A stretch of DNA of 64,000 bases, taken from assembly GCF_963455295.1 (NCBI RefSeq), contig NZ_OY734020.1, forward strand, positions 2,046,001 through 2,110,000. The letters run 5' to 3'. Source of the stretch: Candidatus Thiodiazotropha sp. CDECU1 (lineage in GTDB: Bacteria > Pseudomonadota > Gammaproteobacteria > Chromatiales > Chromatiaceae). The notes below the pieces were generated by a model. That model worked only from the letters and a program-made list of their open reading frames with translations, was not told the DNA's origin and made no database searches. This document shows, one piece after another, positions 7,424 to 26,512 of the stretch. Within the stretch, counting starts at the first letter, position 1; each line of letters starts with the position of its first letter. Position numbers and translations under genes: made by a program.

Positions 7424-8113
7424 ATGGGTGATTACACACTGGGTGCAAGAGGGTCGCGCTTCAACCTGGGTAATTTTCAATTGCGGCTTGATCCTGAAAT
7501 CGAGGCACAGATGTCACAGATAAGGGCAGGCAGCCTTCCGCCACGTATACAACGCCTGTTTCTGCAGCCAAATTGGCGCAGCTTCGATCGTAATCTGCTC
7601 AACTACATGATGTTACAGACACCCGCTTCGACAGCACCTTCGACACCACCAGCAGCGGGTCCGGCAACACCCAGACCGGGGCAGGTTGGTGACGTCATGC
7701 GCGCGGTGTGGCTGTTACCGCCAGTTCAGCAGACCGCAAATCGACTATTGCAGGATAGTCAAAGAAGACTGCGACGAGAGTGGAATCAGGGCGGTGTCGG
7801 AACTCAGATCATGATGGTTACCGCGGCAGCTACGGTTGTCGGTACATCCCTTACCGCACTGCTGATCAATCAGCAAACGAGGGAGCTTGTACTCGGATTT
7901 GTTAATGGGCGACAGCTCCCTGTACCCGGGTTACGGGGTTTCTCGGTGCAGTTGAGAGGACGCGGCCGTGGAGGCGGTGCGCAGTTGCGCAATATTGGTG
8001 GTAGCGGTGTGAGTGTACGTGGTGGCGCGTCTCATTCCGCAACAACGGGGAATATCGATTGGGATGTAGGTATGACGCTCGATCTAACCCAATTGGTTCC
8101 GGCACTGCGTTAG
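7424..8113 (+). CDS. Hypothetical protein with Gly/Arg-rich tail
   Basis: 229 residues, ATG directly after a purine-rich GGTGAGGAG. A Pro/Thr/Ala-rich linker lies at ~65-90, a weakly hydrophobic helix at ~130-145 (MMVTAAATVVGTSLTALLI), and a Gly/Arg-rich tail with alternating short strands (SVQLRGRGRGGGAQLRNIGG) ends in DWDVGMTLDLTQLVPALR. The end resembles an outer-surface beta strand pattern. No family recognised. It stands alone between the peptidase and the convergent dsrE2. Confidence 0.5.
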   Translation: MGDYTLGARGSRFNLGNFQLRLDPEIEAQMSQIRAGSLPPRIQRLFLQPNWRSFDRNLLNYMMLQTPASTAPSTPPAAGPATPRPGQVGDVMRAVWLLPPVQQTANRLLQDSQRRLRREWNQGGVGTQIMMVTAAATVVGTSLTALLINQQTRELVLGFVNGRQLPVPGLRGFSVQLRGRGRGGGAQLRNIGGSGVSVRGGASHSATTGNIDWDVGMTLDLTQLVPALR

Positions 8114-8148
8114 TGCATCCCCCCATGTGGGGGGAGTCATTCCAAGCC

Positions 8149-8754
8149 TCAGATAAACAGATTGACGTCAGCCTTCATGGCGCGCGGTAGAAAACTTGCC
8201 GCGCCGACCCACTCTTCAATCTCGGTGATGAAATCATCCTTACCGTAATCGAACAGATCCACGGTCATCTGGCAGGCGACCAATTTGACTTCAGCCTCCA
8301 CGCACATCTCACGCAGCACTTCGATACTGGCGATGCCTTTATTGTTCATGGTCTTTTTCATCAGGCCGGTGGCCATGGATTCAAAACCCGGCACGAGTGT
8401 CATCACCGATGTCGGCATGGGCAACTCCTTGCCTTTGATCCAGGTGGGGCCCTCCGGTAGTTTCATCGGCATGGCGGGGTTACCCAGGGGGCTCACTTTG
8501 AGATCCAGGGTCTGCTTCAACAGGTTCAGTCCATAGAAGGTAAAAAAGATGGAGACATCCCAACCCAAGGCGGCTGCCGTGGAGGCGAGTATGAAGGGTG
8601 GATAGGCCATATCCAGGGTTCCCTTAGTGGCGATGATCGTCATCGAGGGGATATGCGCCGCTTCCCGTTCCGCCATCTTTTCGGCAAATCGTTGATCAAA
8701 CCAGTTGTCCAGATCCTTGCTCGGGATATCGATCAGTGATGCAGTATTACTCAT
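8149..8754 (-). CDS. dsrE2: DsrE2-like sulfur-carrier/peroxiredoxin-fold protein
   Basis: 201 residues of the DsrE/DsrF-like fold, large DsrE2 subtype. Hallmarks are TIIATKGTLDMAYPPFILASTAAALGWDVSIFFTFYGLNLL, a hydrophobic stretch that may be membrane-associated, and a conserved cysteine in LVACQMTVDLFDY near residue 170. DsrE2 proteins in sulfur oxidisers take part in sulfur transfer with TusA and rhodanese. Here tusA lies 20 bp upstream on the same strand, the classic partner. The pair is probably one operon driven from the operator-bearing promoter at 9044. No rhodanese gene is adjacent. Confidence 0.85.
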   Translation of the reverse strand: MSNTASLIDIPSKDLDNWFDQRFAEKMAEREAAHIPSMTIIATKGTLDMAYPPFILASTAAALGWDVSIFFTFYGLNLLKQTLDLKVSPLGNPAMPMKLPEGPTWIKGKELPMPTSVMTLVPGFESMATGLMKKTMNNKGIASIEVLREMCVEAEVKLVACQMTVDLFDYGKDDFITEIEEWVGAASFLPRAMKADVNLFI

Positions 8755-8774
8755 GATAGCCTCCTATGGGATTC

Positions 8775-9005
8775 TCAAGCCTTGCGAATTCTGAAAAAGA
8801 ATCCGTCTTCGATCTCTTCACTGGAGACCATCTCATGACCGGTTTGACTACAGAATGAGTCCAGGTCCTTTACGGAACCGGGATCGCTTGCAGTGATCTC
8901 CAGAATCTCCCCCGATGAGAGGGCTGCAATCGCCTTTTTGGTCCGGAGTATGGGCAAGGGACAGTTCAGACCGCGGGCGTCGAGGGTGTGTGTTGTCTGA
9001 TTCAT
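8775..9005 (-). CDS. tusA: TusA-type sulfur carrier protein
   Basis: 76 residues with the defining N-terminal motif LDARGLNCPLPILRTKKAI; the cysteine of the CPxP motif (Cys15) carries the persulfide. Length and fold match TusA. In sulfur oxidisers TusA passes sulfane sulfur to DsrE-type proteins or the sHdr/Dsr pathway, and its partner dsrE2 follows directly. The 70-bp gap upstream holds a TetR-type operator. Confidence 0.92.
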   Translation of the reverse strand: MNQTTHTLDARGLNCPLPILRTKKAIAALSSGEILEITASDPGSVKDLDSFCSQTGHEMVSSEEIEDGFFFRIRKA

Positions 9006-9043
9006 CTCATTTCTCCTTTACATCATTTAAACAGCTAAAAGAT

Positions 9044-9060
9044 GACCGGTCGGTCAAGTC
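9044..9060. promoter_or_regulatory. TetR-type operator upstream of tusA-dsrE2
   Basis: GACCGGTCGGTCAAGTC; the core GACCGGTCGGTC contains overlapping dyads (GACCGGTC, ACCGGT). The same 17 bp recur at 9702-9718 in front of the tetR gene. Such GACCGNNCGGTC sequences are typical operators of TetR repressors. It lies 39 bp before the tusA start, between tetR and tusA. Confidence 0.75.
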
Positions 9061-9075
9061 GAAACTCAAAAAAAC

Positions 9076-9684
9076 TCAATTCGGTGGCCTTTGCTCGATA
9101 CGTATGCTTTTGATGGCCGGCCCCAGGGATCTCACCACCTCGGGGTCGTTGCGTGTCTTGGCGAGCAGTATCACGCCTTCCAGATAGGCCAGCATTGCGG
9201 TAGCGGTGGCTTCAGTGTCCAGGGGTGGAATCTCACCTTTCTCAACCGCCTCATCAAGGGCTTCGTGAAAACGGGCGCTGGCCTTTGCGAATACCGCATT
9301 CAGCCGGGCCCTTATCACCTCGTCACGGGTACTGACTTCAAGGGCAAGATTGCCAAACAGGCAGCCGGGCATACGCCCCTCCATGTTTTTCGCCGCCTTC
9401 TGCCAGAAATAGACGGCATCCACCATATAATCGAGCCGCTCGATGGGGGGGAGGGCCTCGTCAAAGGCCTCGGCGACAAAGCCGTTCGCCCACTCATCGG
9501 ACATGCTGTCGATGACCGCCATGGCCAGGTCACGCTTGGAGGGAAAGAAGTGGTAGAAGCTTCCCTTCTGTACCTTGGCCATGGTGCAGATCTCTTTAAT
9601 GCCCACATCCGCATAGCTGCGCCCATGGAAGAGGTCGCGGGCGGTGGCCAGGATGCGGTCTTTGGTGTCAGGGGCGATAGTCAT
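9076..9684 (-). CDS. TetR/AcrR family transcriptional regulator
   Basis: 202 residues. An N-terminal helix-turn-helix of TetR type (residues ~8-55: KDRILATARDLFHGRSYADVG...VQKGSFYHFFPSKRDLAMAVI) is followed by an all-helical ligand domain with a cysteine in GRMPGCLFGNLALE, a pattern typical of TetR_C subfamilies with the GCLxGNLA motif. It ends 70 bp before tusA in the same direction. Identical operators before its own start and before tusA argue for autoregulation and control of tusA-dsrE2. The inducer is unknown. Confidence 0.88.
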   Translation of the reverse strand: MTIAPDTKDRILATARDLFHGRSYADVGIKEICTMAKVQKGSFYHFFPSKRDLAMAVIDSMSDEWANGFVAEAFDEALPPIERLDYMVDAVYFWQKAAKNMEGRMPGCLFGNLALEVSTRDEVIRARLNAVFAKASARFHEALDEAVEKGEIPPLDTEATATAMLAYLEGVILLAKTRNDPEVVRSLGPAIKSIRIEQRPPN

Positions 9685-9701
9685 GGTAGATAATTATATT
9701 A

Positions 9702-9718
9702 GACCGGTCGGTCAAGTC
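9702..9718. promoter_or_regulatory. TetR-type operator upstream of tetR
   Basis: A perfect second copy of the 17-bp sequence at 9044-9060, 17 bp upstream of the tetR start codon and next to an AT-rich stretch (ATAATTATATT) that could be a -10 region. The position suits autorepression. Confidence 0.75.
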
Positions 9719-9942
9719 AAGTTTGATTGAGTTTTCCCTGTTCAATCCAGATCTGTTCAGCTCCTACAGGCGTGGGTACCTTCAAGAGATAACCCCAGCC
9801 GATTAATGGATATAGGGCGGTTTTTTTTTCAGCCTGACATGACTTTTTCGATTCTCATTGCATGGCATGCCGCATAGTCCATTGATAACCACATACCTGA
9901 CCAAGTTGAAATACAAGATAGTCATCTTAGTTGTATCCCAAT

Positions 9943-9971
9943 CTTGAAAAACCAACTGGTCATCCCTATCT
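9943..9971 (+). promoter_or_regulatory. Sigma-32 (heat-shock) promoter for the hsp20 genes
   Basis: CTTGAAA (9943-9949), 14 bp, CCCTATCT (9964-9971). This fits the RpoH consensus CTTGAAA-N11-16-CCCCATNT with one mismatch. It lies 50 bp before the first small heat-shock gene. The stretch 9719-9942 upstream shows no gene. Confidence 0.7.
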
Positions 9972-10021
9972 AAAAGGCAAGCTAACGATTTGTTGCATAT
10001 CAATGCAAGGAGACGAGTGAG

Positions 10022-10465
10022 ATGTTGCCAAGAATACACGGCTTGAATTCAAGCCTGTTTAATGAATTCAGACGCCTTGAACAGGAGATGGATCAACTAT
10101 TCGACGCAGGTTTCTGGCCGAATACCATGCGCTCTGTTGTAAGTGAAAACTATCCGCCGATCAATGTCGGTGTAACCACCGATCAGGTGGATGTCTACCT
10201 GTTTGCCGCAGGCATGGATCCAGAGAAGTTGGATATCTCTATCAATGAAAACCGCTTGTCCATCAAAGGTGAACGTAGCATAGCGCGGGAAGAGGAGACT
10301 GACTACTTCAGAAAAGAGCGCTATGACGGCGCTTTTCACAAAGTGGTCTCGTTGCCCGATGATGTGGATGCGGACAAGGTGGAAGCCCGTTACGACAATG
10401 GTGTGGTGCATATCGTTATCCAGCGTCGTGAATCTTCCAAACCACGACAGATTACCGTGCAGTAA
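10022..10465 (+). CDS. Small heat-shock protein (Hsp20/alpha-crystallin)
   Basis: 147 residues with an alpha-crystallin domain from ~45 to 140: PPINVGVTTDQVDVYLFAAGMD, the KLDISINENRLSIKGERS strand pair, and the A-x-x-x-N-G-V signature as ARYDNGVVHIVIQRR. It acts as an ATP-independent holdase for unfolding proteins. AAGGAGACG precedes the ATG. A second Hsp20 gene follows after 20 bp, so the two form an operon under the sigma-32-like promoter. Confidence 0.92.
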   Translation: MLPRIHGLNSSLFNEFRRLEQEMDQLFDAGFWPNTMRSVVSENYPPINVGVTTDQVDVYLFAAGMDPEKLDISINENRLSIKGERSIAREEETDYFRKERYDGAFHKVVSLPDDVDADKVEARYDNGVVHIVIQRRESSKPRQITVQ

Positions 10466-19238: not shown

Positions 19239-19466
19239 GGTCGTCAATGAAGGACTCTGCAACTGGCGAAGATGGGTGAGGTCTCCATGAGCCTGAATCG
19301 CTTGATCGCCGAACAACGCAAGGCGCAGAAGCGGGTGAATGCGTTGCGTTATAACATCATTCCCCAGTATCGCAATACGATTCGGTTTATTGAGAATGCG
19401 CTTGAAGAGGAAGAGAGGAATGCGTTGTTTCAGGTGAAGGTGTTGCGGGATCAGGAGAAGATTTAA
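19239..19466 (+). pseudogene. Truncated V/A-type ATPase subunit D, C-terminal fragment
   Basis: The frame TLQLAKMGEVSMSLN...AQKRVNALRYNIIPQY, then IRFIENALEEEERNALFQ and KVLRDQEKI, has the RVNAL-x4-IP-x6-I-x2-I-x3-LEE-E-R pattern of V-type ATP synthase subunit D (the central stalk). Only the C-terminal third exists. The frame is closed by TGA just upstream of 19239, and fragments in another frame upstream may be frameshifted remains. No other V-ATPase gene is near, so it is a stranded relic that abuts the convergent integrase stop. Confidence 0.75.
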
Positions 19467-20464
19467 CCCGCTGCCTTCTCTTCACCTTGCAAGACCTCCC
19501 CTAAAGGACTGCGAACTGCAGACCCGCCACGATTGAGCACGTGAGTATAGATCTGAGTTGTGCGAACATCCTTATGTCCAAGTTGCTCCTGTACCGTCCG
19601 AATATCCTGACCACGCTCCAGGAGATGCGTTGCAAACGAGTGACGCAATGTGTGACAACTGGCCTTTTTATTTATACCGGCCGCATGCACCGCACATTTC
19701 ACCGCTTTTCTTACGCTGCTCTCATCGAGATGGTGGCGACGGGTGACCTCTGAGCGTGGGTCGATGCTGCGCTGGGTGGCGGGAAACACATATTGCCATT
19801 TCCATTCCCGGTTTGCGTTGGGATACTTCTTCGACAGAGCAAAAGGCAGATAAACCGACCCGAACCCTTCCGCCAGGTCACGCTCGTGCAAAGTACGTAC
19901 AATTTCAAGATGGCGCTTCAAGGGTACAACAACTTCATCCGCGAGGGTCACCACACGATCCTTACCCCCTTTACCACTCCGCACATAGATCGCACGGTGA
20001 TCAAAATCGAGATCCATGACCCTTAGCCTGACACTCTCAATCAACCTGAGCCCCGAACCGTATTGCAGACAGCCGATCAACCATTGTTGTCCATTCAGGT
20101 TATTGAGAATCCGCGCCACTTCCTGCCTGTTCAGAACAACTGGAAGTCTTTTCGGTCTTTTGGCGCGGACAATACCATCGATTTCATTCAGAGGTCGTTC
20201 CAGCACATAACGGTACATAAAGACCAATGCATTCAGTGCGACATTTTGCGTACTTGCTGAAACATTACCATTGACTGCCAAATGGGTAAGAAATTGAGAG
20301 ACTTCTCGTTCCCTCATATCCTTTGGATGACGCTTTTTGTGATAATAAATAAAACGTTTGATCCAATGAATATAGGTATCTTCAGTTCGCCTGCTGTAGT
20401 GACGCACACGTATCTGGTTAATAACTTCTTGAAGAAAAGGTGATTTCTGGCAGGTACCATCCAT
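19463..20464 (-). CDS. intI: Integron integrase
   Basis: 333 residues from the ATG at 20464 (AAGAGAAAG upstream). It is a tyrosine recombinase with catalytic Arg in [37 protein letters not shown] carrying His and the nucleophile Tyr. The extra patch that separates IntI from other Xer-like enzymes is present ([25 protein letters not shown]). It is transcribed away from attI and the cassettes, the usual integron arrangement. It recombines attI with attC sites of cassettes. Starts further upstream (20557) have no ribosome binding site. Confidence 0.93.
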
Positions 20465-20540
20465 GATTACTTTCTCTTTATGTTCTCCCTTAAAATAATA
20501 GTATTTTAGTTCCTGGAAAAAGTCAATCAAGAAAAGATGC

Positions 20541-20838
20541 TTAGATATAAGGAACATTTCCCGAATTGCACGATGACCGCTCTACTTATTCGTCTTAGTC
20601 ATCCAGGTCACACGATTGGTAAAATCATGAATTATGGTATAAATAAGGTGTTAACAGGGAGGTTAAGTCACTTCTTCATCACCACCTCTCGTTATTTAGA
20701 TATAAGGCAACTTGCCCGTTTAAACAGGTTCATTTGGCCCGCTATCCAGCATAAATTGCGGGATAGTGGGAAGATTGCACTTTGAAGTGGGTAAATTGAC
20801 GGGATATAAGGCAATGTGCCTTTGAATATATGTTATGT
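20541..20838. other. attI: attI region with three hairpin repeats and crossover GTTATGT
   Basis: The region between intI and the first cassette. The probable crossover core is GTTATGT at 20832-20838; the same heptamer follows the first IS, where cassette 2 begins. Three related imperfect repeats lie upstream: ATATAAGGAACATTTCCCG (20544-20562), ATATAAGGCAACTTGCCCG (20700-20718) and ATATAAGGCAATGTGCC (20804-20820). Each is a fixed ATATAAGG leader entering a 4-5 bp hairpin. They may be integrase-binding repeats. Short ORFs in the region have no ribosome binding site and are ignored. Cassette promoter(s) should also lie here. Confidence 0.65.
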
Positions 20839-20845
20839 GTAAAAG

Positions 20846-21157
20846 ATGAAAATAAATAAAGCGCAAATAATGCAGCTTGAGAGCTGGAAAAGAATCAAAG
20901 ATAAAGAAAAATTATCTTTATCTGCATTTTTGAGTGCACAGCCTAAAACGTGGTGGGTTATGTTCGTCATCGTATTTGGAATATGGCTTGTATCTGAACT
21001 TACTAATACTAGCAGTGTTATTTTAAGGGCTTTTGGTATTGGCAGTATCCTGTTTACAGTAATGCTTTACATTCGAGTAAAACTTTACTGGCCTATTACT
21101 CGCCACTGCATAAACTGGGAAAAAGTAGATGAATTGCTCAGAAATAAGAACACATAA
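20846..21157 (+). CDS. Cassette 1: two-span membrane protein, unknown
   Basis: 103 residues, ATG 8 bp after the attI crossover. Two adjacent hydrophobic segments (WVMFVIVFGIWLVSEL, AFGIGSILFTVMLYIRV) flanked by charged ends. Its stop codon TAA is the first triplet of the attC site, which is typical for a gene cassette. No family recognised. The AT-rich composition differs from neighbouring housekeeping genes, as expected for an acquired cassette. Confidence 0.65.
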   Translation: MKINKAQIMQLESWKRIKDKEKLSLSAFLSAQPKTWWVMFVIVFGIWLVSELTNTSSVILRAFGIGSILFTVMLYIRVKLYWPITRHCINWEKVDELLRNKNT

Positions 21158-21235
21158 CAAGCCGGTCAAGTACACTCCGGGCCTGCGGCCCTGCGCGGGA
21201 CCTCGGCTTCGCCTCGGCCCCTTACCGTAAACGTT
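21155..21235 (+). other. attC1: attC site of cassette 1
   Basis: Begins TAACAAGCCGGTCAAG and ends CTTACCGTAAACGTT; CGGTCAAG can pair with CTTACCG leaving one unpaired base, as in attC outer stems. The inner part is a GC-rich palindrome (CCGGGCCTGCGGCCCTGCG, CCTCGGCTTCGCCTCGGCC). Right after the GTT of the right-hand core an IS element begins, so the site is interrupted exactly at the crossover triplet. Confidence 0.8.
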
Positions 21236-22969
21236 GAGGCTGTCGGAAAACCCCATAATCCGATAAAATCACATAGACAATAACGGTGCATGGAGAAAGG
21301 AAGATGGCACGTTATAAGGATTACAACTACGATCAGATGAAAATGCTGCCCGTGTCCTATGAGAAACAAATCCTGCCGGGCAGTTTCGAATACTCCCTCT
21401 CCTACCTGATCGATAACGAGCTTGATATAAGCGCATTTGACCAACAGTATCAAAACGACAGCACAGGCCGGCCTGCCTATGATCCCAAACTGCTGTTAAA
21501 GATCATCATTCTTGCCTATTCCAAGGGCATTACCAGCAGCCGTCAGATCGAACGCCTATGTCGCGAGAATATCGTGTTCATGGCGCTGTCGGCAGACCTG
21601 CAACCCGACCACAGTACAGTAGCAGATTTCATCTCCCGCGCCCCTGATACGATAGCCGACCTGTTTGGACAAGTCGTATTGGTGTGTGATCGGTTAGGCC
21701 TGATCGGTAAAGAGATGTTCGCCGTTGATGGCTGCAAGCTGCCCTCAAACGCGTCCAAGAGCTGGAGCGGCACACATGCTGAACTGAAGAAGAAACGACA
21801 GAAGATCGATCGCGCGGTGCGACGCATGCTGCAACGCCATCGTGAGCAGGATACAGCGGAACAACAACCGGATATCTACGAGCGAGAGCAAGAGCAGATC
21901 AAAAAGCTGCGAGCAGCCTCACGTAAGATCAAACAGCACCTGGACACCGAGCCCGAGCGCAAGGGCACAAGCGGGAAGAGGGTCAAAAGCAACATCACCG
22001 ACAACGAAAGCGCCAAGATGAAGACCAGCCACGGGGTTATCCAGGGCTACACCGGCGTTGCCGCCGCCGACAGTCTACACCAGGTGGTCGTGCACGCCGA
22101 AGCCTTTGGGCAAGGCCAGGAACATGGTCTGCTCAAGCCCGTAATAGAAGGGATCAGGGAGACCTTCAAAGAGAGCAGCCCCAAAGAAGAGAGGAAACTG
22201 CAAAAGACCAAGATCACTGCCGACTCGGGATACCACAACCGGGATACCCTGGAATACCTGGAAGCCGAAGGCATAGACGGCTATCTGGCGGACACCGGCT
22301 TTCGCGCCCGCGACCCCCGGTTCAAGGATCACAAGGCATCGAAAGAGAGAAACAAGCGTAAAGAGAAGGAACGGTTCAGCCAGAGCGAGTTTAAGGTTGA
22401 CCGCAATAACGAGACTTGCCGGTGTCCTGCCGGAAAGGCAATGTGGCTAAAAGCCCGTCGGGCAAGAATCGGCCATCACCTGTTCATGCAGTTCCAGGGC
22501 TACGAACAAGACTGCGACAACTGCGGCTTGAGGAAACGCTGCCTGAGAAACGAGGCCCAGCATACACCAAGGCAGATCAATGTCACACTGGATATCACGC
22601 AGGAACAGAAGGCGGGAATCCTCGAACGGATGAAGCGTAAGATCGATAGCCCAAGAGGCCGCCATATCTACAGTCAACGATTAGGTACGGTTGAACCGGT
22701 GTTTGGCCATCTCACTGATGCCATTGGGATCAATCGGTTCAGCTATAGAGGCAAAAGGAAAGTTGACGGTCAATGGAAATTGATGATGATGTTACACAAT
22801 ATCCTGAAGATCCACCGGTATGGATGGGAATGGACTTAGAATCGAGAATGAAACAAAGTTTGGTGCAACAATTAAAGAAGTTGATTAATCAGTAAAACAA
22901 TGAAAAAGCTTTGTCAAAAATTGATCATAGGGAAATCTATTTTCCGAAATCAGGTTTTTCGACAGGCTC
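21236..22969 (+). mobile_element. IS1182-like insertion sequence, complete, inserted in attC1
   Basis: 1734 bp. Left end GAGGCTGTCGGAAAACCC (21236-21253); right end AGGTTTTTCGACAGGCTC (22952-22969), its inverted copy with a few mismatches. The element is bordered by GTT on both sides (21233-21235 and 22970-22972). Removing it restores AAACGTTATGTGG, a normal attC crossover like that in attI. One transposase gene fills it. Confidence 0.85.
21304..22839 (+). CDS. IS1182-family transposase (DDE, IS4/5-like)
   Basis: The longest frame opens at 21286 with 517 residues; I prefer the ATG at 21304 (MARYKDYNYDQMKMLPVSYE) because GGAGAAAGGAAG lies just before it. N-terminal DUF772 domain (PAYDPKLLLKIIILAYSKGITSSRQIERLC), DDE Asp in FAVDGCKLPSNASK, second part KITADSGYHNRDTLEYL, and the final acidic region near RLGTVEPVFGHL. 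Everything expected of an active enzyme is present, including a Cys-rich zinc-like stretch (CDNCGLRKRC). Confidence 0.9.
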   Translation: MARYKDYNYDQMKMLPVSYEKQILPGSFEYSLSYLIDNELDISAFDQQYQNDSTGRPAYDPKLLLKIIILAYSKGITSSRQIERLCRENIVFMALSADLQPDHSTVADFISRAPDTIADLFGQVVLVCDRLGLIGKEMFAVDGCKLPSNASKSWSGTHAELKKKRQKIDRAVRRMLQRHREQDTAEQQPDIYEREQEQIKKLRAASRKIKQHLDTEPERKGTSGKRVKSNITDNESAKMKTSHGVIQGYTGVAAADSLHQVVVHAEAFGQGQEHGLLKPVIEGIRETFKESSPKEERKLQKTKITADSGYHNRDTLEYLEAEGIDGYLADTGFRARDPRFKDHKASKERNKRKEKERFSQSEFKVDRNNETCRCPAGKAMWLKARRARIGHHLFMQFQGYEQDCDNCGLRKRCLRNEAQHTPRQINVTLDITQEQKAGILERMKRKIDSPRGRHIYSQRLGTVEPVFGHLTDAIGINRFSYRGKRKVDGQWKLMMMLHNILKIHRYGWEWT

Positions 22970-22985
22970 GTTATGTGGTTTAGCA

Positions 22986-23468
22986 ATGGCTACAATGAAA
23001 GTGCACAAAAGTGAAATCGTTCGTAATCAACTTGAAACTGCTGTCAGGCTTTTTCTAAATGGAAGAGATCGCTCATCCGTCATTACACTTGCAGGTGCTG
23101 CTACCGGCATTCTCGACACTTTAGTTCGTAATGCGGGGCACGAGCCTTTTGTTGACTATGCTCGAAGAGTGCATCGCGAATTAGTTGGGCACACCCCTAA
23201 GCGACAATCATATTTTCATCACATAAGTAAAAAAATCGGTGTTATTGTTCACAGGCATATGTCAAAGAATGATCCTGAAATTGTAGAACTGGATCTCGAA
23301 AAGATGGCATCTGATGCTCTTGCTCGTGCGCTTGCCGATTATATAAAGATTAACGGCCAGGACGAACCCTTTGTCAAAGCTTACTTTCAGTGGGCGTGGA
23401 ACAATATGGATGGACAAACTCTTATGGATGAGTACTTGAAACTACCTGAAAACATGAAGCCCGAATGA
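22986..23468 (+). CDS. Cassette 2, first paralog: conserved cassette protein
   Basis: 160 residues from ATG 22986 (the frame extends back to 22911, but that part is IS sequence). The motif NQLETAVRLFLNGRDRSSVITLAGAATGILDTLV is shared with the next gene and with a widespread family of bacterial proteins of unknown function that carry an N-x-L-x-x-A-I-x-L-F...S-V-x-T-L-A-x-A-A pattern. Helical, soluble, no catalytic signature. The stop overlaps the next start (ATGA). Confidence 0.75.
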   Translation: MATMKVHKSEIVRNQLETAVRLFLNGRDRSSVITLAGAATGILDTLVRNAGHEPFVDYARRVHRELVGHTPKRQSYFHHISKKIGVIVHRHMSKNDPEIVELDLEKMASDALARALADYIKINGQDEPFVKAYFQWAWNNMDGQTLMDEYLKLPENMKPE

Positions 23469-23941
23469 CATTAGAAAAACACAACAAATTTAATCTCGCA
23501 GAAAATCAGTTGGAGGCCGCAATTGGGCTATTTGTTAGTGGAGGTGATAAATTTTCAGTAGTTACATTAGCAGGCGCAGCTGATGTTATATTGTGCCAAC
23601 TGGTATTGAATCGAGGAGAAGAAAATTTCACCCAAATTTCTTTGAAGAATGAGATGGAGCGGTGTGATACAACTGGCACTATTAAGTCTCATGGTAAAGA
23701 AATCAATGATCTTTTTTTTATCAATCACCTAAAACACATGGATAAAGGTGAAGACGGTTATATTGAACTGGACCCTGATGAGTGTGCAGTAGGGGCAATA
23801 CTAAAAGCGTTGGCTAATTACGTAATAATTGGGAGTCGTGAAAAAGACTTCGTACAGGCATTTATGGCCTGGGTTCAAATAAACCTTGATCCTAAAAAAT
23901 ACAATATATACGGCGATCCTGAATGGAAACCAACCACATAA
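23465..23941 (+). CDS. Cassette 2, second paralog
   Basis: 158 residues; NQLEAAIGLFVSGGDKFSVVTLAGAADVIL aligns with the preceding protein, and both have a late acidic stretch before ADY/ANY (ALADYIKINGQDEPFVKAYFQW against ALANYVIIGSREKDFVQAFMAW). The start lies in the overlapping stop/start of the first gene, so both are cotranslated. The TAA stop is the beginning of attC2. Two similar proteins in one cassette may form a heterodimer; this is inference. Confidence 0.75.
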   Translation: MTLEKHNKFNLAENQLEAAIGLFVSGGDKFSVVTLAGAADVILCQLVLNRGEENFTQISLKNEMERCDTTGTIKSHGKEINDLFFINHLKHMDKGEDGYIELDPDECAVGAILKALANYVIIGSREKDFVQAFMAWVQINLDPKKYNIYGDPEWKPTT

Positions 23942-24004
23942 CAAACGCATGCAGCCGGATTGCCAAAAGGCTACGCCTTTTGTCAACCGCTGATGCGAGG
24001 CGTT
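23939..24004 (+). other. attC2: attC site of cassette 2
   Basis: TAACAAACGCATGCAGCCGG ... CCGCTGATGCGAGGCGTT. The arms CGCAT(g)CAG(c)CGG and CCGCTGATGCG pair with two unpaired bases, the extrahelical bases typical of attC. The centre is AAAAGGC-TAC-GCCTTTT. Again an IS begins immediately after the GTT. Confidence 0.88.
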
Positions 24005-24996
24005 GAGGCTGTAGAAAAACCCTATTTTTTGCTTAATTAATGATAGAATGGAGATAAAGGAAAGGGAGTCATTCAATGCCTAAATTCATCCCTTACGATT
24101 ACAACCAAAACAGTATGGTTGTCATCAATTATCTCGATCAACTCGTCCCCGGCACGTTCGAATACGCGATCCATTACCTGATTGATAACAAGCTTGATCT
24201 ATCGGTGTTTTACCCAAAATTCAAGAATGATGATGGGGGTCGGCCGGCCTATGATCCAGCAATTCTGCTAAAGATTATCCTGTTTGGTTATTCACGGGGC
24301 ATCACCTCCAGCCGAGATCTTGAGTGGCAGTGCCACCATAACATCCTATTCAAAGCCTTGTGCTGCGATAAAGCACCTCACTTCACCACAATTGCAGATT
24401 TTATCAGTAGTCGTAGTGTAGAGATCGAATCACTTTTCGAACAGATACTATTGATTTGTGATGAGCAAGGCCTGCTCGGACATGCGTTATTTGCCATAGA
24501 TGGTTGCAAGATGCCATCGAATGCCTCAAAGGAGTGGTCCGGGACCTTTAAGGAGTTGGAGCAAAAGCGAACCAAGATCAAGCGCCAGATCCGTTACCAT
24601 CTGGAGGCGCACAAACAACAGGACAAGCACCAAAATCGCGATGATGAAAGGGATCAACGCCGAAAACAAACCATCGAAACGCTCAACCAAGCCTATGAGA
24701 GGATCGATCACTTTTTAAAGTCGCAAAGCCCACGGATGGGCCAAGGCAAGATACAAAAGGAAGTAAAAAGTAATCTCACCGACAACGAAAGCGCCAAGAT
24801 GACCACCTCGAAAGGCACAATCCAGGGCTACAACGGCCTCGCAGCGGTCGACAAAAAGCACCAGATCTTCATTGACGCGCAAGCCTTTGGAGAGGGTCAG
24901 GAGCACCACACATTACAGCCAATCCTTACATCAGTAGAAGCGCGCTACAAACGCCTACGGATTAATGAAGCACTATACGAGAGTGGAGATATCTAG
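24005..24996 (+). mobile_element. Second IS1182-like element, 3'-truncated, inserted in attC2
   Basis: Left end GAGGCTGTAGAAAAACCC (24005-24022) is closely related to the left end of the first element and starts right after the attC GTT. The transposase frame stops at 24996 well short of full length, and no matching right end was found up to 26.5 kb. So the 3' part is lost. Confidence 0.8.
24076..24996 (+). pseudogene. Truncated IS1182-family transposase
   Basis: 306 residues against ~500 for the family. The N-terminal domain (PAYDPAILLKIILFGYSRGITSSRDLEWQC) and first catalytic region (FAIDGCKMPSNASKEW, GYNGLAAVDKKHQIFIDAQAFGEGQEH) are clear. Similarity to the neighbouring IS ends near residue 290, after which YESGDI and a stop follow. 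It lacks the last two thirds of the DDE fold and should be inactive. Sequence divergence shows it is a different element, not a copy of the first. Confidence 0.85.
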
Positions 24997-25212: not shown

Positions 25213-26241
25213 TCAGGCGGGCGATGTCTGATAGATCTGCAACGAATACCCACTCGCGCAGAACCACTTTCTACCGCTACCTATAGCTTGCGTGAACTGC
25301 TTGATCCCTTCCCTTGTTCCGATGACTGTGTTGTAGTTTTTGCCATAGTTTTTGACGCTATCCAGCCAGGCTTCCGGGGCGATATTCAAGCGCTCCAGGA
25401 TTGGTGCCAGTTCTGAAGGAATGGCGCCGGATTTATCTTCTCTGATGGCTCGCCCTGCCCAGTCGGTCAGTGCCAGGTAGTCTGGCAGGCTAAAGTTCAA
25501 GCCTGTGGGTTTGTCTTGGTGCTCACCACCCACAAACGGCACTAAATGCGCTGGCGCTGTGCTTGCGGCTTCTGTGCGGCTCCCTGTCTGCTCAAGTATT
25601 TTTTGATAATGTCTGATACGATCCTGGATGGAGGTGAAGTCTGATGCTTCCGGTCGATCGGCTATCTTTGCCCGGATCGGGTTGAGGTCAACGTAACTCA
25701 TGCAGGTCAATAGGGCTGCATCGTCAAGCAGGGCCTGACTTTTGAATCGGCCTTCCCAAAACTTCCCGGTACAATTGTCCTCCTCATTGGCCTGTCTTGC
25801 GATACTTTCATTGAGATTGCGCATGAACCAGCTGACATCGTAGAGTCTGTGCCGCCACTTTTCGATATCTTCGGCAACCACATCCAGTTCGGCCTTTGTT
25901 AGCTTTATGCCACTCAGATAGCGGCTTACGATAGGGCTTGGTTTGTAGAGCTTGGTCCATCGGGCTATTACTTCTTCATCATGCCAGTTTAAAGCAGCTT
26001 CCCGGTCGATCTTCAGCACCGTATGGGTGTGATTGTGCATCACGGCATAAGCGCAGATCGAGATTGAGAATACCCCATCCAGCTGCTTGAGCTTTTCCAC
26101 TATCCAGTCTCTACGGTGTTCGTAGCTACGACCGGTTAATTCATCCTCTCCGCACAGGAAGGCGCGGCGCACACAGCGCGATACACAATGGTAATAGGGG
26201 GTTTCTTCAAGACAGATCTGTTGCTTGCGCGATATCGTCAT
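25213..26241 (-). CDS. Y1 (HUH) transposase of the REP-associated type
   Basis: 342 residues from the ATG at 26241 with GGAG 6 bp upstream. TnpA/IS200-like domain: YYHCVSRCVRRAFLCG at the N-terminus, the HUH motif in AYAVMHNHTHTVLKI (~residue 85), and RWHRLYDVSWFMRNLNESIARQANE, KFWEGRFKSQALLDDAALLTCMSYVDLNP before the long C-terminal extension. The nucleophile Tyr lies probably in the helix MSYVDLNPIRA region or before it. Such single genes are often linked with REP repeats; here the flanks show none, but REP-like palindromes are common elsewhere in the window. The gene is intact. Confidence 0.82.
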   Translation of the reverse strand: MTISRKQQICLEETPYYHCVSRCVRRAFLCGEDELTGRSYEHRRDWIVEKLKQLDGVFSISICAYAVMHNHTHTVLKIDREAALNWHDEEVIARWTKLYKPSPIVSRYLSGIKLTKAELDVVAEDIEKWRHRLYDVSWFMRNLNESIARQANEEDNCTGKFWEGRFKSQALLDDAALLTCMSYVDLNPIRAKIADRPEASDFTSIQDRIRHYQKILEQTGSRTEAASTAPAHLVPFVGGEHQDKPTGLNFSLPDYLALTDWAGRAIREDKSGAIPSELAPILERLNIAPEAWLDSVKNYGKNYNTVIGTREGIKQFTQAIGSGRKWFCASGYSLQIYQTSPA

Positions 26242-26512
26242 GGCCGGCTCCGTGGCATGGTTACATTCCTTGTGCCGCCTGACTTTAATGCACCTGAATG
26301 CTCTTTTCAAATGGTGACTGTCTTAATATACTATAGTAGTGATGTTTTTGTTGATAATTCTTCTGGTCGATCATGGTGTGATTTAATATGGAATCGAGTA
26401 CAATTTTTAGATGGATCTGGCGTGTCAATGGTGTCCTGGTTTTACGAGTCTTGCCAAGTATTGCAGACATCCATTCATGAGGTCGCCAGATTGAAAGGTA
26501 GTGCCAAGAATC

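Follow-up and report, generated by a model that had tools for sequence, protein, structure and literature searches.

Why should two different insertion sequences (IS) start at exactly the same base of two attC sites? The question is raised by a 64-kb stretch of the genome of Candidatus Thiodiazotropha sp. CDECU1 (contig NZ_OY734020.1, positions 2,046,001 to 2,110,000; the whole stretch is hereafter called the window). It carries an integron with the integrase gene intI on the minus strand, cassettes pointing away from intI and two attC sites, both of which are interrupted directly after CGTT by the end GAGGCTGT. Targeting of attC was inferred in the initial annotation from these two cases, and is now supported by the six copies of the first element in its own genome and by a collection of relatives. 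The two elements probably belong to a distinct clade of the IS1182 family, which inserts preferentially into attC directly behind the GTT of R'', duplicates these three bases and keeps almost always to one orientation. The interrupted sites and the elements within them are the following.

21152..21235, plus strand: attC 1 through the GTT of R'', with R' (ACATAAC) at 21152-21158; passes the attC score described below (as own_L003)
21233..21235, plus strand: GTT, left copy of the target duplication
21236..22969, plus strand: element 1, a complete IS1182-family insertion sequence of 1734 bp (ends 21236-21252 and 22953-22969), with six identical genome copies
21304..22839, plus strand: transposase of element 1 (NF033551, 295.3 bits, cut-off 270; Pfam DDE_Tnp_1_6, DUF772 and DDE_Tnp_1)
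22970..22976, plus strand: GTTATGT, the right GTT copy plus the remainder of R''; the next cassette starts here
23936..24004, plus strand: attC 2 through the GTT of R'', with R' (ACATAAC) at 23936-23942; bottom-strand hairpin, z -5.59
24005..24979, plus strand: element 2, a different IS1182-family element of which the left part is present, at the same attC position; DNA 81-82% identical to elements of the congeners G127 and G134
24076..24996, plus strand: transposase frame of element 2, cut off, 306 aa (NF033551, 161.9 bits; a score under the cut-off of 270 is expected of a fragment)

Element 1 has terminal inverted repeats (GAGGCTGTCGGAAAACC / GGTTTTTCGACAGGCTC), its ends being defined from the six identical copies. 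In agreement with the initial annotation, it is complete and flanked by GTT on both sides (21233-21235 and 22970-22972), the right flank running on as GTTATGT, and element 2 is a diverged, truncated relative in the identical position of the other attC. Element 2 starts with GAGGCTGTAGAAAAACC at 24005, directly after attC 2, its similarity to relatives extends over about 970 bp, and its protein is 49% identical to that of element 1; the search patterns located no right end of it in the window. Homologues of attC 1 were read in three congeners (G127, G134 and G136; three of the four places found), where they run on as GTT-ATAGGC, GTT-AGGTTT and GTT-AGCTCT, respectively. Since these homologues are uninterrupted and continue as GTT-A, the border between attC and IS was placed correctly in the initial annotation. 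The doubt whether GAGGCTG is part of attC is answered by its absence from the same homologues, and also by the non-GTT triplets described below, which change on both sides of the element.

The six copies of element 1 in its own genome are identical over 1734 bp. Five of them have GTT on both sides, with GTTATGT, GTTATGC or GTTAGGC at the right, and a full attC is seen by eye at the left of four, namely the window copy (L003), L008, L009 and L010. Copy L012 has GTTATGT at the right and an IS110-type element (PF02371, PF01548) at the left of the cassette-junction GTT. Copy L011 reads ATT-IS-ATT and lies in coding DNA, where it breaks reading frames; no empty site of this copy was found among 22 congeners. 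The product of the gene split by L011 (around 7546-10251) presumably resembles abortive-infection proteins.

For comparison of the flanks across relatives, 80 genome loci (the best 80 of 570) were combined with one viral contig, the six own copies and 11 host-family loci, from which fragments, own-genome copies that had already entered and L026 (same locus as L050) had been left out. The resulting 98 records were reduced to 96 by dropping two duplicates. By record titles, the 80 genome loci belong to gamma-, beta- and deltaproteobacteria, Nitrospirota and single metagenome bins of other groups. The left end was located in 86 of the 96 records, with GTT at 80, and the right end in 92, with GTT at 84; among right flanks of 7 bases, 79/90 start with GTTR. 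Both ends were located in 82 copies. The two 3-bp flanks match each other in 78 of these and are both GTT in 74; the flanks differ in the remaining four (L056, L075, L095 and L119). The non-GTT triplets mostly change on both sides, as in ATT/ATT (L108 and the own copy L011), TTT/TTT (L089) and AAC/AAC (L115), which is how a target duplication behaves. Flanks of AAC correspond to insertion in reverse orientation (L115 on both sides, L123 at the left, L117 at the right); the elements of the clade are almost always inserted in the same orientation. Plasmid records gave two relatives, both on Pseudoalteromonas replicons of more than 1.2 Mb, and 71 pattern matches in viral contigs gave one relative. 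The Pseudoalteromonas replicon NZ_CP074588.1 contains another CGTT-IS-GTT site, and in NZ_CP022523.1 only the right end was located, followed by GTTAGAG.

The position of insertion is also the crossover triplet of the integron integrase. If the IS were excised as a circle closed through GTT and recombined with attC at G|TT in the manner of a cassette, the arrangement attC-GTT-IS-GTT would result, and the elements could then have been placed by the integrase. This is, however, highly improbable. The ATT/ATT and TTT/TTT duplications lack the crossover G, GTT duplications are present in genome G100, whose only integrase is a fragment below the family cut-off, and L115 is inserted in reverse orientation. 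Unlike an integron gene cassette, moreover, element 1 shows by eye no attC of its own at the 3' end, its terminus ...GACAGGCTC being followed by GTTATGT.

The targets were compared with attC by a self-made two-arm score of R' and arm pairing against 100 dinucleotide shuffles per flank, for which the training attC were taken from the arrays in the same loci, IS targets not included. One duplicate was taken out and flanks shorter than 143 bases were omitted, leaving 79 targets. A p value of 0.05 was reached by 49 of the 79 (49/78 without a second duplicate) and 0.01 by 34, whereas of 304 control CGTTR sites, sampled at up to four per locus from other parts of these loci and possibly including real array attC, 30 reached 0.05 and 16 reached 0.01 (Fisher p = 7e-21, odds ratio 15, for targets and controls). 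A further 17 sites, two from the host family (L164 and L166) and 15 from a sample of the class, were obtained from 23 loci after removal of the repeats L173, L176, L040 and L175 (= L095) and of two without a left end; all 17 read CGTT, and 9/17 passed the score. Inspection of the flanks of related copies, as proposed in the initial annotation, thus gave GTT on both sides of most copies and attC scores at the majority of sites in both sets, and not a majority of unrelated targets. The attC-positive members range in protein identity to element 1 from about 86% down to about 43%.

Ordinary IS1182 elements within an attC-rich region might also meet attC by coincidence, and other IS1182 elements do make short duplications. 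The matched CGTTR control refutes this explanation, which we give practically no credence. GTT stands on both sides of five of the six own copies, and of 74/82 copies in the whole collection with both ends located; only 2 of the 23 flanks scored for 13 other IS1182 elements passed the attC score.

Other measures of attC likeness were set aside. A strict test of the agreement between R' and the right-hand 7-mer separated targets poorly from controls and was replaced; its weakness is probably due to the right part of R'' being derived from the next cassette. A simple stem score was dropped because its null set contains real attC, and no covariance model was built, as a MAFFT alignment of 18 attC appeared inadequate for it.

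If the transposase reads only a short (C)GTT|R, attC could be favoured simply by carrying CGTTR and by offering low-harm cassette junctions, at which insertions survive. Most sites outside attC also read (C)GTT, C precedes the triplet in 21 of the 30 targets that fail the score, and CGTTR is common, with 174 sites on both strands of the window. Nevertheless, the same-locus CGTTR sites, a control not limited to intergenic sites, score as attC far less often than the targets, and one and the same attC was hit repeatedly in three loci (L077, L162 and L127), so that a short core as the whole explanation appears unlikely. In L077, two complete elements that share 84% identity over 1840 bases are stacked as attC-GTT-IS-GTT-IS-GTT. 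In L162 the second element follows likewise and is 95.8% identical over its first 567 bases, and in L127 a second left end follows, without BLAST similarity to the first element. These stacked elements indicate that a first insertion can leave attC and its GTT open to further ones.

The GTT-flanked copies form one clade within IS1182. In a quick maximum-likelihood tree of 110 transposases, 93 rows were separated from 17 other IS1182 with a Shimodaira-Hasegawa-like approximate likelihood ratio (SH-aLRT) support of 100; a misplaced row on a very long branch (L132) falls inside the 93, and the tree program warns of the meeting of long branches. L061 and L064 were omitted from the underlying alignment (A3) for their stops. 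Within the transposase, D142, D307 and E464 are invariant across 50 aligned rows, align with the sister elements, and are the probable DDE catalytic residues. The only features specific to the clade in comparison with the sister elements are inserts of 5-11 alignment columns. A structure model of the transposase reached a mean predicted local distance difference test (pLDDT) of 81.6 and a predicted template modelling score (pTM) of 0.71. The nearest fold was that of Tn5 transposase, a weak match (E 5e-3, template modelling score 0.34-0.36), and among solved structures none matched by sequence and none by fold at E 0.001.

Genomes with the clade are mostly integron-bearing: intI above the cut-off was found in 19 of the 24 genomes with clade copies or fragments, and within the class sample of 370 genomes in 15/19 with the clade versus 133/351 without it (p 5e-4). 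Nearest the root within the 93 rows are L032 and L047 (both G100) and L034 (G030), which have GTT duplications and fail the attC score; neither G100 nor G030 has an integrase above the cut-off. These root-near rows in integrase-poor genomes weakly suggest that the GTT triplet preceded attC targeting in the history of the clade. G100 carries five complete copies of the basal relative, with GTT duplications.

As for the mode of target recognition, the four full attC targeted in the own genome agree at just 7-14 of 30 positions upstream of CGTT, and a long linear recognition sequence is therefore unlikely. Folding is stronger for attC-positive targets than for null sites (median z -1.78 vs -0.03, p 9e-9), and the single strand of attC 2 has a strong fold (z as listed above). 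Since attC targeted by identical copies share so little sequence, the DDE transposase may be drawn to attC by its folded shape, either a bottom-strand hairpin or a cruciform, and would require in addition the short core (C)GTT|R. Insertion would leave G|TT at both sides, so that the upstream attC would lose just the last four bases of R'', with GTTGAGG in place of GTTRRRY; the start of the downstream cassette would still be at G|TT. The interrupted attC may remain a substrate of the integrase, with the IS as the head of the downstream cassette; the integrase would then move the IS and this cassette as a single unit. We offer as a tentative proposal, possible though somewhat doubtful, that the DDE transposase has come to recognise attC in its folded hairpin form, in the way known from the integron integrase, and inserts at the crossover triplet, thereby leaving attC functional. 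The IS would ride as a cassette head, with arrays as both refuge and vehicle, and two unrelated transposase families, IS1182 and IS1111, would have entered the same niche independently.

Sequence comparison shows the clade, the insertion position, the duplication, the attC enrichment, the repeated hits on one attC and the orientation bias, and the preference for attC is strong, not absolute, as about 30/79 sites fail the score. Several observations weigh against preferential insertion into attC or against the proposed recognition of its fold. The attC score is self-made and was trained on attC of the very loci that hold the targets, though not on the targets. Of the 30 failing sites some clearly lie outside attC, while one (L079) looks by eye like an attC with a damaged R', and just one of the five sites in G100 (L032, L041, L045, L046 and L047) scores as attC. 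In the own genome the score was passed by L003, L008, L009, L010 and L011 and failed by L012; the pass of L011 (p 0.02) was taken as chance because this copy sits in coding DNA, which indicates that single passes can be chance. For the score-negative targets the advantage in folding over null sites is slight (median z -0.52, p 0.053), and attC 1, single-stranded, folds no better than its own shuffles (bottom strand z +0.34). Four of the 19 clade genomes of the class sample are without intI above the cut-off, and no case of an integrase moving IS and cassette together was seen in the copies examined.

Targeting of attC by insertion sequences has so far been described for a DEDD, RNA-guided family. 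The IS1111-attC group (ISKpn4, ISPst6), said to have been described by Tetu and Holmes in 2008 and by Post and Hall in 2009, uses a DEDD transposase together with a guide (seek) RNA. Insertion into attC is what the present clade has in common with this group, while its DDE transposase, terminal inverted repeats and 3-bp duplication are unlike those IS110-type elements. In PMC11187229, the IS1111-attC group is treated as insertion sequences targeting attC of integron cassettes. Group IIC-attC introns, according to PMC8876359, are also mobile elements that settle at attC; they possess a ribozyme and a reverse transcriptase, in contrast to the DNA transposase of the clade, and a scan of the window with Rfam at the gathering score gave no match.

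Within the IS1182 family, IS1272, TnSha1 and TnSha2 are reported to target inverted repeats capable of forming hairpins (PMC5678879, PMC4923244), and IS1272 deletes its hairpin target and makes no duplication (PMC5678879). The clade resembles IS1272 in family membership and may resemble it in hairpin recognition, to which the low sequence agreement of the targets and the better folding of attC-positive ones would point indirectly. Unlike hairpin replacement by IS1272, it keeps attC at the left and GTT on both sides. Other IS1182 elements of the class (L131, L133, L136, L139, L145, L157, L158 and others) share NF033551 and similar inverted ends with the clade, and differ from it in having neither the GTT pattern nor attC. 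Duplications of about 4 bp, with uncertain borders, were seen in 6/17 of these elements and none was found for most others; the clade misses this duplication, having 3 bp in 78/82 copies. The length of the duplication was not treated as defining the family, because IS1272, itself of the IS1182 family, has none in the account of PMC5678879 cited above.

Targeting by a guide RNA was set aside for the clade. The right non-coding ends measure 66-199 bp in the 13 sister elements and about 135-215 bp in the clade, and the targets share little sequence; the RNA search was that of the window with Rfam, not of the element ends.

No report of IS1182 elements in attC was found in the open-access literature, ISfinder and key subscription papers being outside the search. 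In a survey of plant-associated cassettes, most array transposases were assigned to IS5, IS3 and IS110 (PMC11089894). If our interpretation is true, an old and widespread DDE clade at attC would turn attC targeting into an example of convergence and provide a system for testing hairpin recognition by a DDE transposase on a well-understood target. Environmental cassette arrays would carry elements that may cap, shuffle or travel with cassettes, and transposase genes beside attC need not be cassette genes.

The remaining parts of the integron in the window are as follows.

19463..20557, minus strand: integron integrase gene intI (TIGR02249, 470.3 bits, cut-off 265)
20832..20838, plus strand: GTTATGT opening the first cassette, putative attI-side junction, read from the sequence
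20846..21157, plus strand: reading frame of the first cassette, 103 aa; no family match in profile searches
22986..23468, plus strand: reading frame of the next cassette; no family match in profile searches
23465..23941, plus strand: second reading frame preceding attC 2; no family match in profile searches

The own genome (4.46 Mb) contains four integron integrases above the family cut-off. It also contains seven copies of an IS110/IS1111-type element (L195-L201; in L012 at 7737-8762), with protein identities of 88-100%. Six of the seven are preceded, on the side of the transposase start, by YAAC or CAAC like the R' of attC or, in the reverse orientation, by GTTRRRY; the seventh abuts element 1. 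A body of attC is apparently absent beside these copies. Just past element 2, a frame on the minus strand of the window (25213-26310) weakly matches IS200-like Y1 transposases (19.7 bits, cut-off 23).

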